Source: Leuconostocaceae bacterium ESL0723 (GTDB taxonomy: Bacteria; Bacillota; Bacilli; Lactobacillales; Lactobacillaceae). From it: 64,000 nucleotides of DNA. The notes under the pieces are model-generated. The model searched no databases and had not been told where the DNA came from. It was given only the letters and a program-made list of their open reading frames with translations. The translations under genes were made by a program, and so were the position numbers. Where the stretch lies: the NCBI GenBank assembly GCA_029392055.1, contig CP113928.1:618501-682500 (forward strand), in the 5' to 3' direction. Below are positions 1,542-26,646 of this stretch, one piece after another (position 1 is the stretch's first letter; each line of letters starts with the position of its first letter).

Positions 1542-1718
1542 AGATGCTTAAACACTGTGGCCTAGCAAGTCCGTGTTGATGAGAGGCGGACCCTCAGTGT
1601 TAAGCGGCGCGTACTGGTCATGAACAAGTGATTAATTTTGAGTGGTTTCATCGAAACTATGAGAGTGGTACCGCGGGCAGGGCTCGTCTCTTGAGATAAT
1701 CATGGGGCGGCCCTTTTT
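1530..1718 (+). promoter_or_regulatory. T-box riboswitch leader of argS (arginine)
   Basis: The T-box core AGAGTGGTACCGCGG lies at 1662-1676. Stem III is GTTTC-ATC-GAAAC at 1645-1657. A long Stem I arm pairs 1546-1557 with 1595-1605 (CAGTGTTAAGC). On the 3' side of that stem lies GGCGCGTA at 1606-1613, where CGT followed by A (1610-1613), or CGC, is a candidate arginine specifier. The intrinsic terminator pairs AGGGC-T-CGTCTC (1679-1690) with GGGGCGGCCCT (1704-1714) and runs into five T. When uncharged tRNA-Arg binds, the antiterminator should form and argS should be transcribed. The 5' boundary is uncertain and may reach into the preceding coding region. Confidence 0.88.
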
Positions 1719-1732
1719 ATTTTAAATTACAG

Positions 1733-3497: not shown

Positions 3498-5579
3498 ATG
3501 AATTTTTTTAAGCAAGTAAGGGCGTCTAAGACCTGGCAGTCGATGGCTGCCGTCTGGAATCGCTGGCAGCTTGGCCGCCTGTTAATTGTTAGTTTTTTGG
3601 CCCTCTTTTTCTTAAGTAGTGCCTATCTGGTCGGGGTGGCGAAGACCGCCCACGTCCGCAATTTGCAGGCCTCCTTATCCCAAACGACTAACATCTACGA
3701 TAACAATAACCAACAGGCTGGTCAGCTCTACTCTCAAAAGGGGACTTACGTTAAGTACGACCAGATTTCACCCAACATGCGCGACGCCGTCCTATCGATT
3801 GAGGACCGTAATTTTTACCACGAACATGGTTTCTCAGTGAAAGGGCTGGCCCGCGCGGCCTATCTTTTGGTTAAAAACCGCCTGACTGGGTCCAAGGTGA
3901 TTTCTGGGGGTGGCTCGACCATTACCCAGCAGCTGGTTAAAAATGCCTACCTCAACCAGGAGCAAACCTTTAGCCGAAAGGCCAAGGAAATCTTCCTGGC
4001 CATGCAGGTTGAGCAGGTTTACAGCAAAAATCAGATTCTAACCATGTACTTAAACAATGCCTGGTTTGGTAACGGGGTCTGGGGGGTTGAAGATGCTTCC
4101 CAAAAGTACTTTGGTGTCCATGCCAGTGACCTGACTACGGCCCAGGCAGCGACCTTGGCTGGGATGTTGACCAACCCGAGTGGCTTTAACCCAATTGATC
4201 ACCCCGACCGGTCGAAATTACGGCGCGACTTGGTCTTGCAGACCATGGTTGCTAATAAGAAATTGAGCCAGTCGGATGCCCAAGCGGCCATTAACAGTCC
4301 GATTGTCCTCAACGATACCTATTCCGGTAGCGAGGGTTACCGCTACCCTTGGTTCTTTGATGCGGTGATTAACGAAGCTGTCAATAAGTATGGCTTGGAT
4401 GAAAAGGCCATCATGAACGGTGGTTACAAGATTTACACCACCCTGAATCAAAAGGACCAGGATAACCTGCAAAAGGACTATCTCAATAACAGCCTCTTTG
4501 GTAATCAAAATAGCGCCCAGGCGGCCACGGTCGTCTTGAATGCCCAAGATGGTGGCGTCCGCGCCGTGATTGGTGGCCGGGAGACCCAGCACACCTTCCG
4601 TGGCTTTAACCGGGCGACTCAGGCCAGCCTGCAGCCCGGATCGATTATCAAACCAATCGTGGTTTATGCGCCGGCCTTATCCAGTGGTTATACGATTAAT
4701 TCCAAGTTGCCTAACCACCGTCTGACCTTTGGGACGAATGGCTACTCGCCAAGCAATGCCTTAAACATTGAAACTGGGGATGTGACCATGTATCAGGCCC
4801 TGGAGCACTCCTATAATATTCCGGCCGTTTACCTGCTAAATAAGATGGGCATTAACACCGGTTACCAGAGTGCTTTGAAGTTCGGCCTGCCCGTTACTGA
4901 CCAGGATAAGACTTTGTCCTTGGCCCTGGGTGGTTTGACCAAGGGCGTTTCGCCCCAGCAAATGGCCCAGGCCTACACGGCCTTTGCCAATAACGGGACG
5001 ATGAGCCAGGCCCACTATATCAATAAGATTGTTGATGCCAGCGGAAACGTGGTCGTTAGCAAGCCGGATTACCAGCAAAAGCAGGTGATTTCTAGCAAGG
5101 TGGCCGATAATATGACCCGGATGATGCTGGGTACTTATACGAACGGTACCGGTGCCGGGGCAGCGCCGTCTGGCTTTACCATTGCTGGTAAGACCGGAAC
5201 GACCGAAAACCCTAATGATCCCAATAACGCCAACTCGTCCAAGGATTCCTGGGCAGTTGCTTATACCAAGGATGTTGTCCAAGTTTCTTGGATGGGTCTG
5301 GAAGGTAACGATACCGGTTCCTTGCCACTGGGCTTGATGGGTACGATTGGACCGCTGGTGAAGGCCTCAATGGGTCAGATTTTACCTAACACTAGTGAGC
5401 AGAACTTCACCGTTACCAATCCCAACCAGCCGGCCGATAATCAGACGACTGGCAATGGTAACAACAATGGCTCTAACTGGTTAGATAATGCTGGTAAAAC
5501 CATTAACGATGGGATTGATAAAACGGTTGATGGGGCTGGTAAAGTATGGGATACTATCAGGAGTTGGTTCAATAATTAG
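3498..5579 (+). CDS. Class A penicillin-binding protein (transglycosylase/transpeptidase)
   Basis: This bifunctional peptidoglycan synthase is anchored by an N-terminal membrane helix (about residues 25-46). The GT51 glycosyltransferase domain carries the catalytic EDRNFYHEHG motif near residue 100 and GGSTITQQ. The transpeptidase domain has the nucleophile motif SIIK (about residue 382), SYN (about 437) and KTGT (about 564). At 693 residues it is of PBP1A/PonA type. The C-terminal tail after about residue 640 is rich in Asn, Gly and Asp and looks flexible. The ATG follows AGGGAGA. It lies downstream of argS with no terminator between. Confidence 0.93.
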   Translation: MNFFKQVRASKTWQSMAAVWNRWQLGRLLIVSFLALFFLSSAYLVGVAKTAHVRNLQASLSQTTNIYDNNNQQAGQLYSQKGTYVKYDQISPNMRDAVLSIEDRNFYHEHGFSVKGLARAAYLLVKNRLTGSKVISGGGSTITQQLVKNAYLNQEQTFSRKAKEIFLAMQVEQVYSKNQILTMYLNNAWFGNGVWGVEDASQKYFGVHASDLTTAQAATLAGMLTNPSGFNPIDHPDRSKLRRDLVLQTMVANKKLSQSDAQAAINSPIVLNDTYSGSEGYRYPWFFDAVINEAVNKYGLDEKAIMNGGYKIYTTLNQKDQDNLQKDYLNNSLFGNQNSAQAATVVLNAQDGGVRAVIGGRETQHTFRGFNRATQASLQPGSIIKPIVVYAPALSSGYTINSKLPNHRLTFGTNGYSPSNALNIETGDVTMYQALEHSYNIPAVYLLNKMGINTGYQSALKFGLPVTDQDKTLSLALGGLTKGVSPQQMAQAYTAFANNGTMSQAHYINKIVDASGNVVVSKPDYQQKQVISSKVADNMTRMMLGTYTNGTGAGAAPSGFTIAGKTGTTENPNDPNNANSSKDSWAVAYTKDVVQVSWMGLEGNDTGSLPLGLMGTIGPLVKASMGQILPNTSEQNFTVTNPNQPADNQTTGNGNNNGSNWLDNAGKTINDGIDKTVDGAGKVWDTIRSWFNN

Positions 5580-21527: not shown

Positions 21528-22072
21528 TGGCCTTTGATTTTAGTCAAACAAAAGAACGAATGCACGGTGCCCAAGAAGCTTTGAAGCGCGAACTTGCTGA
21601 AATTCGGACTGGCCGCGCTAACCCCAACATTTTGAACCGGGTTGAAGTTGAGTATTACGGTGCCATGGTGCCCTTGAACCAGGTGGCTTCGATTTCAGTT
21701 CCGGAAGCCCGTCTCTTGCTGATTACGCCATTTGACAAGACGGCCTTGGAAGCAATTGTCCAGGGCATTAACATGGCTGATTTGGGTCTCAACCCGGCCA
21801 GCGATGGGAATATTGTCCGGCTTGCCATTCCACAGATGACTGAGGAACGTCGTAAGGAATTGGTTAAGGACGTGAAGGCCGAAGCTGAAAAGGCTAAGGT
21901 TGCTGTTCGTAACGTCCGCCGGGATGTCATGGATGCCATTAAGAAGAATGACGAAATGACCGAAGATGAAATTCATGATGCTGAGGATCAGGCCCAGAAA
22001 TTGACTGATCAAAACACCAAGGCCATTGACGATATTGCCAGTGACAAGGAAGCCGAACTGCTTAAGATTTAA
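21527..22072 (+). CDS. frr: Ribosome recycling factor
   Basis: RRF works with EF-G to split post-termination ribosomes. The 181-residue protein shows the family signatures: IRTGRANP near the start, VEYYGAMVPLNQVASISVPEAR, ITPFDKTALEAI, GLNPASDGNIVRLAIPQMTEERRKEL and the C-terminal helical KKNDEMTEDE. The start codon overlaps the pyrH stop, and GGAGAG lies just upstream. A promoter and T-box follow the gene. Confidence 0.98.
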   Translation: MAFDFSQTKERMHGAQEALKRELAEIRTGRANPNILNRVEVEYYGAMVPLNQVASISVPEARLLLITPFDKTALEAIVQGINMADLGLNPASDGNIVRLAIPQMTEERRKELVKDVKAEAEKAKVAVRNVRRDVMDAIKKNDEMTEDEIHDAEDQAQKLTDQNTKAIDDIASDKEAELLKI

Positions 22073-22082
22073 GCCGTCTGAC

Positions 22083-22111
22083 TTGACCTTTTTAACCGGG
22101 TTGTTCATAAT
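22083..22111 (+). promoter_or_regulatory. Promoter of the glycine T-box operon
   Basis: -35 TTGACC (22083-22088) and -10 CATAAT (22106-22111) with a 17-base spacer. Transcription should start near 22118, which fixes the 5' end of the T-box leader about eight bases before its first helix. Confidence 0.8.
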
Positions 22112-22117
22112 AATAAA

Positions 22118-22265
22118 CGAGTTAACCAGGCAGTGAGGTGGGTTGGCAACCACTGAGCCTGGCCTTGATAAAGTGTCGGACTCTGGTCCGGAAATCAGGT
22201 GGAACCGCGCGTGAGCGTCCTGATGTCAGTAACTGACATTGAGACTGCCCAGGCGCGGTTTTTGT
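22118..22265 (+). promoter_or_regulatory. Glycine T-box riboswitch with very short Stem I
   Basis: T-box core AGGTGGAACCGCG is at 22197-22209. Stem I is only about 37 bases: CCAGGC (22126-22131) pairs with GCCTGG (22157-22162), AGTGA and GA form a K-turn-like internal loop, GGTGG (22137-22141) pairs with CCACT (22150-22154), and the apical loop GTTGGCAA holds GGC (22145-22147), a glycine codon followed by A. Stem III is CGGAC-TCTG-GTCCG. The antiterminator pairs ATCAGG (22194-22199) with CCTGAT (22219-22224). The terminator pairs AACCGCGC (22203-22210) with GCGCGGTT (22253-22260) and a T-run. It controls the DUF2130 gene and glyQS. Confidence 0.88.
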
Positions 22266-22282: not shown

Positions 22283-23629
22283 ATGGCAAAACTAAATTAT
22301 CACCTTGCTTCTCAAACGGTCCTGGTCTTAGATGAGGACGGTAAGGCTGGCGACACCCTTGATTTAAAAGATGAGCAGTCGGTTGATACCAGCCAACTCA
22401 GTGAGGCCGTTCAGGCGGCCTTTACCCAACGGATTGACCAGGAGAAGGCTCAGTGGGAAAAAGACCAGGCGGCCCTGGCAGCGGCCCAACTGGCCCAGGC
22501 CAAGCAAGAGGGTGACCTCGCCGTCACTAAGGCTAAGCAGGCCGAGCGTGAGCAGGCGGCTGAAGAAAAAGCAGCCTTGCAAGCGCAACTGGCTAACCTG
22601 AAAGCCGAGATGACGGCTTTAAAGGAGCAGCAGGGGACCCAAACCGAGTTAGCCCTAGCTCAACAAAAAGAAAGCCTGCAAAACAACTACCAGAGCCAAA
22701 AGGATCAGGCCAGTCAGCAGCAACAAGCCCTTGAAAAGCGGTTAAACGACCTACAAAACCAGCTCCAAAACCAGGATCGAAACCAGGAACTGGCCCTGGT
22801 GAAGGTCAAGGCTGACTACGAAGCCCAGTTAAAGGCGGCCCAGGACCAGGTGCAGTTCTACAAGGACTTTAAGGCCCGCCAATCGACCAAGGAAATTGGT
22901 GAGAGCTTAGAAGTTTATGCCCACCAAGAATTCAATAAAATCCGGCCCTATGCTTTCCCTAACGCCTACTTTGAAAAGGACAATGAGGTATCACGGGAGA
23001 CTGGTTCCAAGGGTGACTTTATCTTCCGGGACTATGATGATGGGGTTGAGTTTATCTCGATCATGTTTGACATGAAAAACGAGGCCGATGCGACTGAGAA
23101 GAAACATAAGAATGCCGATTTCTTCAAGGAATTGGACAAGGACCGTCGTGAAAAGGGGACTGAATATGCCGTGCTGGTCTCGCTCTTGGAGGCTGACAAT
23201 GACTACTACAACACCGGCATTGTCCAGGTGCCCGACTATGAAAAAATGTATGTGATTCGGCCCCAGTTCTTTGTCCAGTTCATTGGCATTTTACGAAATG
23301 CGGCCCTAAATTCGGTCAAGTACCGTAAAGAATTAAGGGCGGTCCAGGAGCAAAACGTTGATATCACTAATTTTGAAGGTAGTATCAACGACTTCAAGCA
23401 GAAATTTGGCAAGAATTATGAGTCCTATGCCAAGAATTACCACAACGCCATTGAGCAAATTGACCGGGCCATTTCTCAGATGGAGAAGGTCAAGGCCAGT
23501 CTAAAGACCTCAGAAAACCAGTTCCGGCTTGCGAATAACAAGCTGGAAGATTTGACGGTTAAAAAGCTCACCCGTGGTAACCCCACGATGAAGGCTAAGT
23601 TTGATGAACTAAGAGATCAGCAGGATTAA
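22283..23629 (+). CDS. DUF2130 domain protein with long coiled coil
   Basis: A 448-residue protein of unknown function. Residues about 50-210 are an Ala/Gln/Glu/Lys-rich coiled coil. The DUF2130 region follows (about 215-370), with [17 protein letters not shown], then FDMKNEAD and [13 protein letters not shown]. The spaced D...E...K residues are compatible with a PD-(D/E)XK-type nuclease fold as in RmuC relatives, but activity is unproven. The C-terminal part is helical again. Glycine is scarce (14 by my count). The start at 22283 follows GGGGAGGAA; the longer in-frame start at 22199 lies in the T-box. It is the first gene of the glycine T-box transcript and ends 15 bases before glyQ. Confidence 0.87.
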
Positions 23630-23644
23630 GGAAAAGGAAATACG

Positions 23645-24589
23645 ATGACAACTACTAAGTTAACCGTGCAAGATATTATCCTCCAGTTGCAAGCTTTCTG
23701 GGCTAACCAGGGGGCGAACCTGATGCAGGCCTACGATACTGAAGTTGGCGCTGGGACCCAAAGCCCTTACACCTTCTTACGAGCTAATGGTCCAGAACCT
23801 TGGAATGCGGCCTATGTCCAGCCTTCACGCCGTCCGGCCGATGGTCGTTATGGCGACAACCCCAACCGCTTGTTCCAACACCACCAGTTCCAAGTGGTCA
23901 TGAAGCCTTCACCCGATAACATTCAAGAGCTGTACCTCGCTTCCTTGGAAGCGCTGGGGATTAAGCCCTTAGAACACGACATCCGCTTCGTTGAAGATAA
24001 CTGGGAAAACCCTTCAATGGGGGCGGCCGGTATTGGCTGGGAAGTTTGGTTAGACGGGATGGAAGTTACCCAGTTTACCTACTTCCAACAGGTCGGTGGG
24101 ATTGAAGTCGATTCGGTTACTGCCGAAATCACCTATGGGCTGGAGCGCTTGGCCTCTTATATTCAAGACGTACCAACGGTTTATGACCTGGAGTGGGGTA
24201 ATGGGGTCATGTACGGTGACATTTTCAAGGAACCGGAGTATGAGCACTCTAAGTACGCCTTTGAAGAATCGGACGAGGACATGCTCCTCCGTCACTTTGA
24301 AGACTACGAGAAGGAGGCTAACCGCCTCTTAGACCTTGGTTTAGTCCACCCAGCCTATGACTACATTTTGAAGTCTTCGCACACCTTTAACCTGTTGGAT
24401 GCCCGTGGTACGGTCTCGGTTACTGAACGAGCCGGTTACTTGCACCGCATCCGGAGCATGGCCCGTAAGGTTTCCCGGGTCTTTATTCAGGAACGGGCTA
24501 AGTTGGGCTTCCCGCTCTTAAAGGATCCCGACCTCAGGGAAAAGTATCTTGGTGCCCATGGTAAGTACACCCCTAAGGAGGAAAAGTAA
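23645..24589 (+). CDS. glyQ: Glycyl-tRNA synthetase alpha subunit
   Basis: The alpha chain holds the class II catalytic core of the alpha2beta2 glycyl-tRNA synthetase. The 314-residue protein is highly conserved, with [15 protein letters not shown] at the start, [20 protein letters not shown] (motif 2 region) and [24 protein letters not shown] precedes the ATG. Its stop overlaps the glyS start. There is no separate T-box in front of it, so its glycine response must come through the leader upstream of the DUF2130 gene. Confidence 0.98.
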
Positions 24590-26646
24590 TGGCAAACTTT
24601 GCACTTGAAATTGGCTTAGAGGAAATGCCAGCCCACTTGGTCACTAGCTCAGAAAAGCAGCTGGTCGACCGGGTCCATGATTTTTTGGATGAGCACCGCC
24701 TTTCAGTGGCTGCCATTAAACCCTTCTCGACGCCCCGTCGTCTGGCAGTAATGCTGGTAGACGTCGCGGAAAAATCAGAATCCATCAGTGAAGAACGGCG
24801 TGGACCAGCCTTGGAACGGGCAAAAGACGATGATGGTAACTGGTCCAAGGCCGCCCAAGGCTTTGCCCGCGGTCAAAAAACTACCCCAGACGAATTAACT
24901 AGTCGGGATGGCTATCTCTGGTATACCCAAGAAATCGCCGGAGAACCGGCGGCTGACATTCTCAGTCGCCTGGGGGATGAAGTCGTTAGTGAAATGAAGT
25001 TCTCCACTTACATGAAGTGGGGGAACCATGACTTCTTGTATGTGCGCCCAATCCGCTGGCTGGTAGCCCTCTTGGACGACCAGGTCGTTGATTTCACGGT
25101 CTTAGATGTCCACACTGACCGGGTTACTCGGGGACACCGATTCCTATCAAATGAGCACGTCGTGATTGATGATGCCACTGACTACGTTGATACCTTAAAA
25201 GATGCCTACGTCTTGGCTGACGCCAAGGAACGCAAGGACGTGATCGCCCAGCAGTTAACTGACATCGCTAAGCAGGCTGGGTGGCAGTTAGATTTGACCT
25301 CAGAGCCGGCCCAGGACCTGTTAGAAGAAGTTAACAACATTGTGGAATGGCCAACGGCCTTTGCCGGTAACTTTGATGAAAAGTACCTGGACCTGCCTGA
25401 TGAGGTATTGATTACCTCGATGCGGGAACACCAGCGCTTCTTCTTTGTCCGTGACCAAGCTGGCAAGCTCCTGCCACACTTCCTGTCTGTCCGGAACGGG
25501 GATGCCGAGTACTTAGATAACGTGGTGGCCGGTAACGAAAAGGTCTTAGTGGCCCGGTTGGAAGATGCAGAATTCTTCTACCGTGAAGACCAGCAAAAGA
25601 CGATTAGCGACTACATGGAGCGGGTTAAGAAGCTTGTCTTCCACGAAAAAATTGGTACGGTTTACGAGCACATGCAGCGGGTTCAAGGACTTGCTGCTAA
25701 CCTAGCACAGACCCTAGGCCTGGATGCCCAGGAAAAGACCGATCTGCAGCGGGCCGCTGAGATTTACAAATTCGACCTGATGACTGGCATGGTTGGCGAG
25801 TTCGATGAACTGCAGGGTATTATGGGTGCGCACTATGCCAAGCTGTTTGGTGAAAATGATCAGGTAGCAACTGCCATTCAGGAGCACTACCAGCCCACAT
25901 CTGCCACTGGACCAACTGCTAAGACAGCTGTCGGTGCGGTCCTGGCCATTGCTGATAAGCTAGACAGCATCATGACCTTCTTTGCCGCCGACATGGCCCC
26001 AACTGGTTCTAATGACCCTTACGGTTTGCGCCGGGCCGCTAGTGGGGTGGTTCGGACCCTGATTGACCATAACTGGCACCTGGACCTCACCACTGTTCTG
26101 ACCAACTTCAAGCAGGCCAATGGTGATGTTGCTGATACCAATGTGGCTGATGTCGTTGCCTTTATGGTTGACCGAGTCCGGAAGTTGGCTCAGGATGCTG
26201 GTATCCGCCCCGATATCGTGGCGGCTGGCACGGCCTTGGTTGAGCGCGGTGACGTGACCTTTGTCATGGACCGGACCCAGGTTCTGTCGAAGCACAGTGC
26301 CGATGCTAATTTCCGGTCAGTGATGGAGGCCCTAACTCGAGTTTCACGCCTGGCGGCCAAAGATGAGGGGGCCAAGCAGGTTAACCCTGACCTCTTCACC
26401 AACGATGCTGAAAGTAAGCTCTATCAGCTGACCAAGGACTTGAACGTTGCCCAACTGGCTGACCAAGGTGCTGAGACCCTATACCAGGCCCTTGCCCAGC
26501 TAACTGAACCAATTGACCGGTACTTTGACCAGACCATGGTTAATGATGACGATCAGGCAATCCGGGCTAATCGCTATGCTCAGCTCCACCTCATTCAGGC
26601 TGGCGTATATGAGCTCGGAGACTTGGAACAGGTTGTGGTTAAGTAA
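24589..26646 (+). CDS. glyS: Glycyl-tRNA synthetase beta subunit
   Basis: The 685-residue beta chain binds tRNA-Gly and is needed for charging with GlyQ. Visible features are the N-terminal LEIGLEEMPA segment, HRFLSNEHV, the EHQRFFFV and FLSVRNGD motifs of the HD-like and B3/B4-like parts, and a C-terminal anticodon-binding DALR-like domain. AAGGAGG lies just upstream and the start codon overlaps the glyQ stop. A strong terminator ends the operon. Confidence 0.98.
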   Translation: MANFALEIGLEEMPAHLVTSSEKQLVDRVHDFLDEHRLSVAAIKPFSTPRRLAVMLVDVAEKSESISEERRGPALERAKDDDGNWSKAAQGFARGQKTTPDELTSRDGYLWYTQEIAGEPAADILSRLGDEVVSEMKFSTYMKWGNHDFLYVRPIRWLVALLDDQVVDFTVLDVHTDRVTRGHRFLSNEHVVIDDATDYVDTLKDAYVLADAKERKDVIAQQLTDIAKQAGWQLDLTSEPAQDLLEEVNNIVEWPTAFAGNFDEKYLDLPDEVLITSMREHQRFFFVRDQAGKLLPHFLSVRNGDAEYLDNVVAGNEKVLVARLEDAEFFYREDQQKTISDYMERVKKLVFHEKIGTVYEHMQRVQGLAANLAQTLGLDAQEKTDLQRAAEIYKFDLMTGMVGEFDELQGIMGAHYAKLFGENDQVATAIQEHYQPTSATGPTAKTAVGAVLAIADKLDSIMTFFAADMAPTGSNDPYGLRRAASGVVRTLIDHNWHLDLTTVLTNFKQANGDVADTNVADVVAFMVDRVRKLAQDAGIRPDIVAAGTALVERGDVTFVMDRTQVLSKHSADANFRSVMEALTRVSRLAAKDEGAKQVNPDLFTNDAESKLYQLTKDLNVAQLADQGAETLYQALAQLTEPIDRYFDQTMVNDDDQAIRANRYAQLHLIQAGVYELGDLEQVVVK

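Follow-up and report, generated by a model that had tools for sequence, protein, structure and literature searches.

T-boxes have been sorted into four classes, in which tRNA binding is augmented by an elbow motif in the distal part of Stem I, by an S-turn in Stem II or by both (PMC10482949). In the prevailing view, transcriptional T-boxes generally need a long Stem I, and the capture of tRNA is assisted by the elbow contact of Stem I, by the S-turn of Stem II or by the two together. Forms with an ultra-short Stem I have been described among the translational ileS leaders of actinobacteria (PMC7583486, PMC10482949), and the short forms of Class III need Stem II (PMC10482949). Truncated Stem I matches are mentioned without details in the main text of TBDB. 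In the open papers that were searched, neither a transcriptional ultra-short Stem I nor a Leuconostoc leader of that kind is described; key papers were beyond reach and priority is unproven. Here, a glycine T-box leader was analysed that lies upstream of the glycyl-tRNA synthetase genes glyQ and glyS of Leuconostocaceae bacterium ESL0723, within a stretch of 64,000 nucleotides (nt) of contig CP113928.1 (assembly GCA_029392055.1, positions 618,501 to 682,500, forward strand; hereafter the window). The leader is very probably a transcription-terminating glycine T-box of minimal architecture, without the distal arm of Stem I and without Stem II.

The leader occupies window positions 22083-22263 on the plus strand and is composed, as read from the sequence, of promoter, Stem I, linker, Stem III, antiterminator and terminator in this order (Table 1). 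It has the broad attributes of a T-box, namely a UGGN bulge in an antiterminator that is the alternative to a terminator, and a cognate specifier. Like the Class II glyQS leader of Bacillus subtilis it is transcriptional, specifies glycine, would control glyQS and has a single-stranded linker in the place of Stem II; also shared are Stem III, antiterminator and terminator, a Stem I with a K-turn (kink-turn) at its base and, with long glyQS leaders, an equal specifier-to-T-box spacing. Class II, however, is marked by a long Stem I with a distal double T-loop (the elbow motif) and a specifier in an internal loop, whereas Stem I of the window leader has only 37 nt and presents its specifier in the apical loop. 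A short Stem I without elbow motif, an apical-loop specifier and a K-turn are features of Class III (ileS of Nocardia and Mycobacterium), in which the loops are penta- or hexaloops; the loop of Leuconostoc is the hexaloop GUGGCG. Unlike the window leader, which lacks Stem II, ends in a U-run terminator and specifies glycine, Class III requires Stem II with its S-turn, belongs to ileS and is mostly translational, acting through a sequestrator. In Weissella and Lactobacillus, the full-length glyQS leaders agree with it in gene, 3' half and orthologous position, but they carry a distal arm (AGCGA...GUGNNAG) and mostly have 140-175 nt between the -10 element and the T-box core. Judged by sequence comparison, the leader mixes Class II (no Stem II, terminator) with Class III (short apical-loop Stem I) and misses a defining feature of each.

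Everything that comes after the specifier loop in a standard glyQS leader is missing from Stem I of the window leader. The spacing between specifier and T-box is 53 nt, compared to about 50-60 nt in long glyQS leaders, and therefore the downstream geometry is kept and the loss is limited to the approximately 65 nt of the distal arm. The linker to Stem III measures about 10-17 nt in the homologues. In the window species its CUUGAU could pair with AUCAGG, which is not the case in the relatives, and this pairing was left out of the model.

In order to examine the conservation of this architecture, 11 leaders were aligned without being fitted to a covariance model, and covariance model R1 was built from this alignment. 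In these 11 leaders 95.6% of the cells are paired, and double changes occur in 7/8 basal and 5/5 apical Stem I pairs. R1 was then run over 398 Lactobacillaceae genomes and found 42 genomes, each of a different species, at 61-114 bits, all of them in six genera of the Leuconostoc group; the next matches, at 55.5 bits or less, are full-length T-boxes where inspected. The second alignment, consisting of the 42 matches fitted to the model, is paired in 93.2% of the cells versus 75.0% in shuffles and contains 251 cells with double changes versus 90.5 in shuffles. All 13 Stem I pairs change on both sides (basal 8/8, apical 5/5), and pairing drops from 93% to 41% if the partner strand is slid by one column. 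The 5' side of the K-turn reads NNNGA in 41 and its 3' side GA in 39 of the 42 homologues. A glycine codon stands in the specifier position throughout, GGC in 40 and GGA in two, and the base directly 5' of it is U in 41/42; long glyQS leaders often have G, A or C there. The distal Stem I arm is missing in all 42.

A previous sequence-only reading of the window had described an ultra-short Stem I of about 37 nt with basal helix, K-turn, five-pair helix and glycine loop, and had noted that the AG bulge and distal loop for the tRNA elbow are absent. Both statements are borne out by the covariation of the short hairpin and by the uniform loss of the distal arm, and the transcriptional output through antiterminator and terminator, which it had pointed out as found in a lactic acid bacterium, is upheld by the fold and the homologues. 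Its statement that ultra-short Stem I forms are linked to translational actinobacterial ileS leaders agrees with the literature (PMC7583486, PMC10482949), and an alignment of orthologous glyQS leaders, as it had proposed, led by way of R1 to the 42 short homologues in six genera. What it missed is that the short form is a fixed trait throughout the Leuconostoc group instead of being particular to the window genome, and that Stem II is absent too, although the actinobacterial short forms require it.

Specifier and K-turn vary in few members of the group. In Fructobacillus (loci L144 and L150, also L030 and L031) the specifier is changed from GGC to GGA, corresponding to a change from tRNA-Gly(GCC) to tRNA-Gly(UCC), and in the same leaders the 3' GA of the K-turn is UA. 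One member of the Oenococcus group (L179) has lost the K-turn.

The position of the promoter points in the same direction as the hairpin. From it, the RNA start is predicted at about 22117-22119, and the coordinates of the sequence-only reading (TTGACC-17-CATAAT, start near 22118) are correct. An equivalent promoter, nearly always with a 17-nt spacer, ends 83-94 nt 5' of TCAGG in 39/42 homologues. Between the end of the -10 element and the T-box core, the window leader has 86 nt and the short leaders related to it have 77-95 nt, as compared to approximately 140-175 nt in most other Lactobacillales. Since the promoter lies near the antiterminator in nearly all 42, there is no room for a longer Stem I. 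A start far upstream together with a full-length Stem I, by which the earlier interpretation could have been overturned, was not found, the promoter distance being conserved and the short hairpin covarying.

The 3' half of the leader is that of a terminating T-box. The antiterminator is paired to 100% in the 42 homologues, UGGA in its bulge is conserved, and in the fold the terminator recruits the strand of the T-box bulge, so that terminator and antiterminator are mutually exclusive. A terminator helix ahead of a T-run was detected in 34/42 homologues with a strict helix test. The whole leader of the window folds better than 200/200 shuffles (z -3.78). A T-box covariance model had been suggested as a check; the T-box family RF00230 of Rfam matches positions 22124-22225 at E 7.7e-6 though with 36.6 bits, because the match skips most of the Stem I of the model, and the gathering score of 93 is reached neither here nor by 20 homologues (31.6-50.2 bits). 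Among 25 further clear T-boxes in the window genome, 20 likewise fall below this cut-off; the gathering score is therefore a threshold and does not define a T-box. These other T-boxes are mostly 160-265 nt long and score 59-108 bits, except for a 170-nt argS leader and one match at chance level.

Table 1. Features of the glycine T-box leader and the genes behind it (window positions)
Feature	Position (strand)	Description	Basis
Sigma-70-type promoter for the T-box RNA	22083..22111 (+)	TTGACC-17-CATAAT; -35 TTGACC 22083-22088, spacer 17 nt, -10 CATAAT 22106-22111	sequence and homologues
Ultra-short Stem I hairpin	22126..22162 (+)	37 nt	fold and covariation in all 13 pairs
Stem I basal helix	22126..22131 (+)	CCAGGC/GCCTGG; partner strand 22157-22162	
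K-turn	22132..22136 (+)	AGUGA, opposite GA 22155-22156	
Apical helix and loop	22137..22154 (+)	5 base pairs, GGUGG/CCACU (first pair G-U), closing the apical loop GUUGGCAA	
Apical loop	22142-22149 (+)	GTTGGCAA (DNA letters)	
Glycine specifier in apical loop	22145..22147 (+)	GGC; U before, A22148 after	
Single-stranded linker	22163..22175 (+)	13 nt, no room for Stem II	sequence and alignment
Stem III	22176..22191 (+)		fold; double changes in 4/5 pairs
Antiterminator	22194..22224 (+)	AUCAGG / GCGC / GUGA loop / GCGU / CCUGAU	pairing in homologues
T-box bulge	22200..22206 (+)	UGGAACC; UGGA complementary to U73-C-C-A of tRNA-Gly	
Intrinsic terminator	22201..22263 (+)	core ACCGCGC 22204-22210 with GCGCGGU 22253-22259; U5 22259-22263	
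DUF2130 gene, first behind the switch	22283..23629 (+)		Pfam PF09903, E 1e-78
glyQ, glycyl-tRNA synthetase alpha	23645..24589 (+)		Pfam PF02091
glyS, glycyl-tRNA synthetase beta	24589..26646 (+)		Pfam PF02092

The comparison of sequences establishes the structure, the codon, the T-box, the terminator and the position of the promoter, and we infer from them that uncharged tRNA-Gly would bind through GGC and UGGA and would regulate the operon. In the sister genome G039, tRNA-Gly(GCC) has the anticodon loop UUGCCAU and U73 and fits GGC and UGGA, while tRNA-Gly(UCC) (loop CUUCCAA, U73) would serve the GGA leaders. In the proposed mechanism, the apical loop would pair through its GGC, or rarely GGA, with the anticodon of tRNA-Gly, and the K-turn at the base of the hairpin would swing the tRNA, once bound, over the domain that lies downstream. 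The U73-CCA end of an uncharged tRNA would pair with UGGA in the antiterminator bulge; the antiterminator would be stabilised, no terminator would form and DUF2130-glyQS would be transcribed. With charged tRNA-Gly the terminator would be free to form. Lactic acid bacteria of the Leuconostoc type would in this way sense a lack of glycine.

Some points weigh against a working switch of this kind. The elbow motif reportedly plays an important part in transcriptional T-boxes (PMC7583486), and with both motifs lost the response to tRNA could therefore be weak or lost. Eight of the 42 homologue terminators miss the strict helix test; by inspection at least one of these leaders (L162) has a different hairpin before U8. 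Furthermore, tRNA-Gly genes were not found in the assembly of the window genome itself (G000), only in the sister genome G039. Few members of a large tRNA cluster were found in G000, whereas in G039 they stand side by side, and the cluster with the tRNA-Gly genes is probably missing from the assembly.

As neither elbow motif nor Stem II is present, something must compensate for the lost tRNA contacts. One possibility is additional pairing in the loop, in which U before GGC might pair with A37 and A or G after it with U33; for the predicted loop duplexes, energies from -7.6 to -5.1 kcal/mol were estimated. Compensation might also come from a K-turn protein, from a high level of tRNA-Gly or from slow transcription. 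Among these, the assistance of a protein can be stated as an alternative of its own, according to which the T-box works but might obtain its missing affinity from an L7Ae/YbxF-type K-turn binder or from the co-transcribed DUF2130 protein. The K-turn is among the best-kept parts of the leader, YbxF-type proteins may assist T-box K-turns (PMC7583486) and in three genera the switch is followed first by the DUF2130 gene, but the Leuconostoc, Oenococcus-like and Lactococcus loci with the same RNA have no DUF2130 gene at this position, and we consider this alternative rather unlikely. Still less probable is a decaying, unresponsive T-box that is retained only as terminator or attenuator. Such decay could be read from the loss of both affinity-adding, tRNA-gripping motifs and from the absent K-turn of L179; however, both Stem I helices covary over six genera and the glycine specifier is retained throughout, including the swaps between GGC and GGA, which a dead sensor would not be expected to keep. 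Finally, an ordinary long glyQS T-box with a start farther upstream, of which the short hairpin is a mere part, is very improbable: frr is close by and read-through from its operon could occur, but the frr stop and the hairpin are no more than 53 nt apart, the sequence 5' of the specifier contains no distal-arm motif (AGCGA...GUGNNAG), no canonical distal arm appears when about 120-170 nt of upstream DNA are included in the fold, and the 42 relatives keep the same short hairpin and promoter behind varied upstream DNA, some with frr more than 1 kb away, so that a longer Stem I from an upstream start was ruled out by promoter distances and upstream folds.

The named members of the six-genus group are Fructobacillus and Leuconostoc, and one of the other carrier genera looks like Oenococcus. 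Sampled Weissella and other lactobacilli have glyQS leaders with a full distal arm. Among 245 Streptococcaceae genomes, the same short Stem I recurs, with the loop GUGGCG and a lower R1 score, in ten species that belong to one genus; by the named loci L032-L034 these are the Lactococcus piscium group. The ultra-short glycine T-box is accordingly known in more than 50 species (42 of the Leuconostoc group and ten of the Lactococcus piscium group). Apart from these ten, inspected matches below 61 bits in the Lactobacillaceae, the order sample and the Streptococcaceae are full-length T-boxes. With R1, no further ultra-short case was found among 217 genomes sampled from the order, 300 from the class and 299 from the phylum, the latter two judged at E 1e-9; as R1 is tuned to the Leuconostoc-type 3' half and distant ultra-short forms could escape it, this is a limit and not a proof. 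A DNA pattern scan of the order returned the window only, in a sample nearly without members of the Leuconostoc group.

In a GlyQ tree, all Lactococcus GlyQ fall within the clade of the Leuconostoc group (100/98), with Weissella, which has long leaders, as sister, and a clade of Lactococcus and Streptococcus GlyQ was rejected (approximately unbiased test, p 0.0012). Horizontal transfer of glyQ is therefore indicated. Most likely, the distal arm was lost once, in the ancestor of Leuconostoc, Fructobacillus and Oenococcus after the split from Weissella, and the simplest reading is that the leader reached the Lactococcus piscium group by horizontal transfer together with glyQ. A wider proposal is made tentatively and is somewhat less likely than not: the leaders would form a fifth T-box architecture with one origin in the Leuconostoc lineage, carried with glyQ into the Lactococcus piscium group, and the apical loop would gain the missing affinity from a kissing complex that comprises four to six pairs (U before GGC with A37, the base after GGC with U33).

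If a minimal transcriptional T-box is the correct interpretation, a conserved natural example without elbow motif or Stem II would set the minimum for tRNA sensing by RNA, and its small size would suit it to structural and kinetic work. A further consequence would be that the elbow contact can vanish in evolution while the switch stays and moves between families with its gene. For T-box specialists, the minimal requirement for tRNA capture would become directly testable.

Several neighbouring observations were made. One genome of the Lactococcus piscium group (G1183) has two near-identical ultra-short glycine T-boxes (L271, L285) on different contigs. The glyQ leaders of Lactococcus fujiensis, a related metagenome-assembled genome and Companilactobacillus seem to be truncated in the opposite way (L040, 5' of glyQ at 5001; L039, L049, L053, L064, L065): a distal hairpin (AGCGA-helix-GRNRGUGNAAG) lies near the RNA 5' end without basal helix and K-turn, and the specifier GGC is located in a poorly paired stretch. 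The leaders of Companilactobacillus and L. fujiensis are short by promoter distance and were rejected as carriers, as the distal arm is present and the base is missing. In the window, the leader sits between frr (stop at 22072) and the DUF2130 gene, followed by glyQ and glyS. In the window genus, in Fructobacillus and in genus g7 (e.g. L028, L030, L031, L138, L139, L141) the DUF2130 gene separates the glycine T-box from glyQ, and the Leuconostoc, Oenococcus-like and Lactococcus loci lack it there, yet have the same RNA. The argS leader at window positions 1542-1720 is a T-box with a weak score (RF00230, 38.6 bits), in which a long basal helix closes a compact Stem I; a K-turn is not obvious in it, and its bulge reads GAGAGUGGUACC where GGGUGGUACC is usual.
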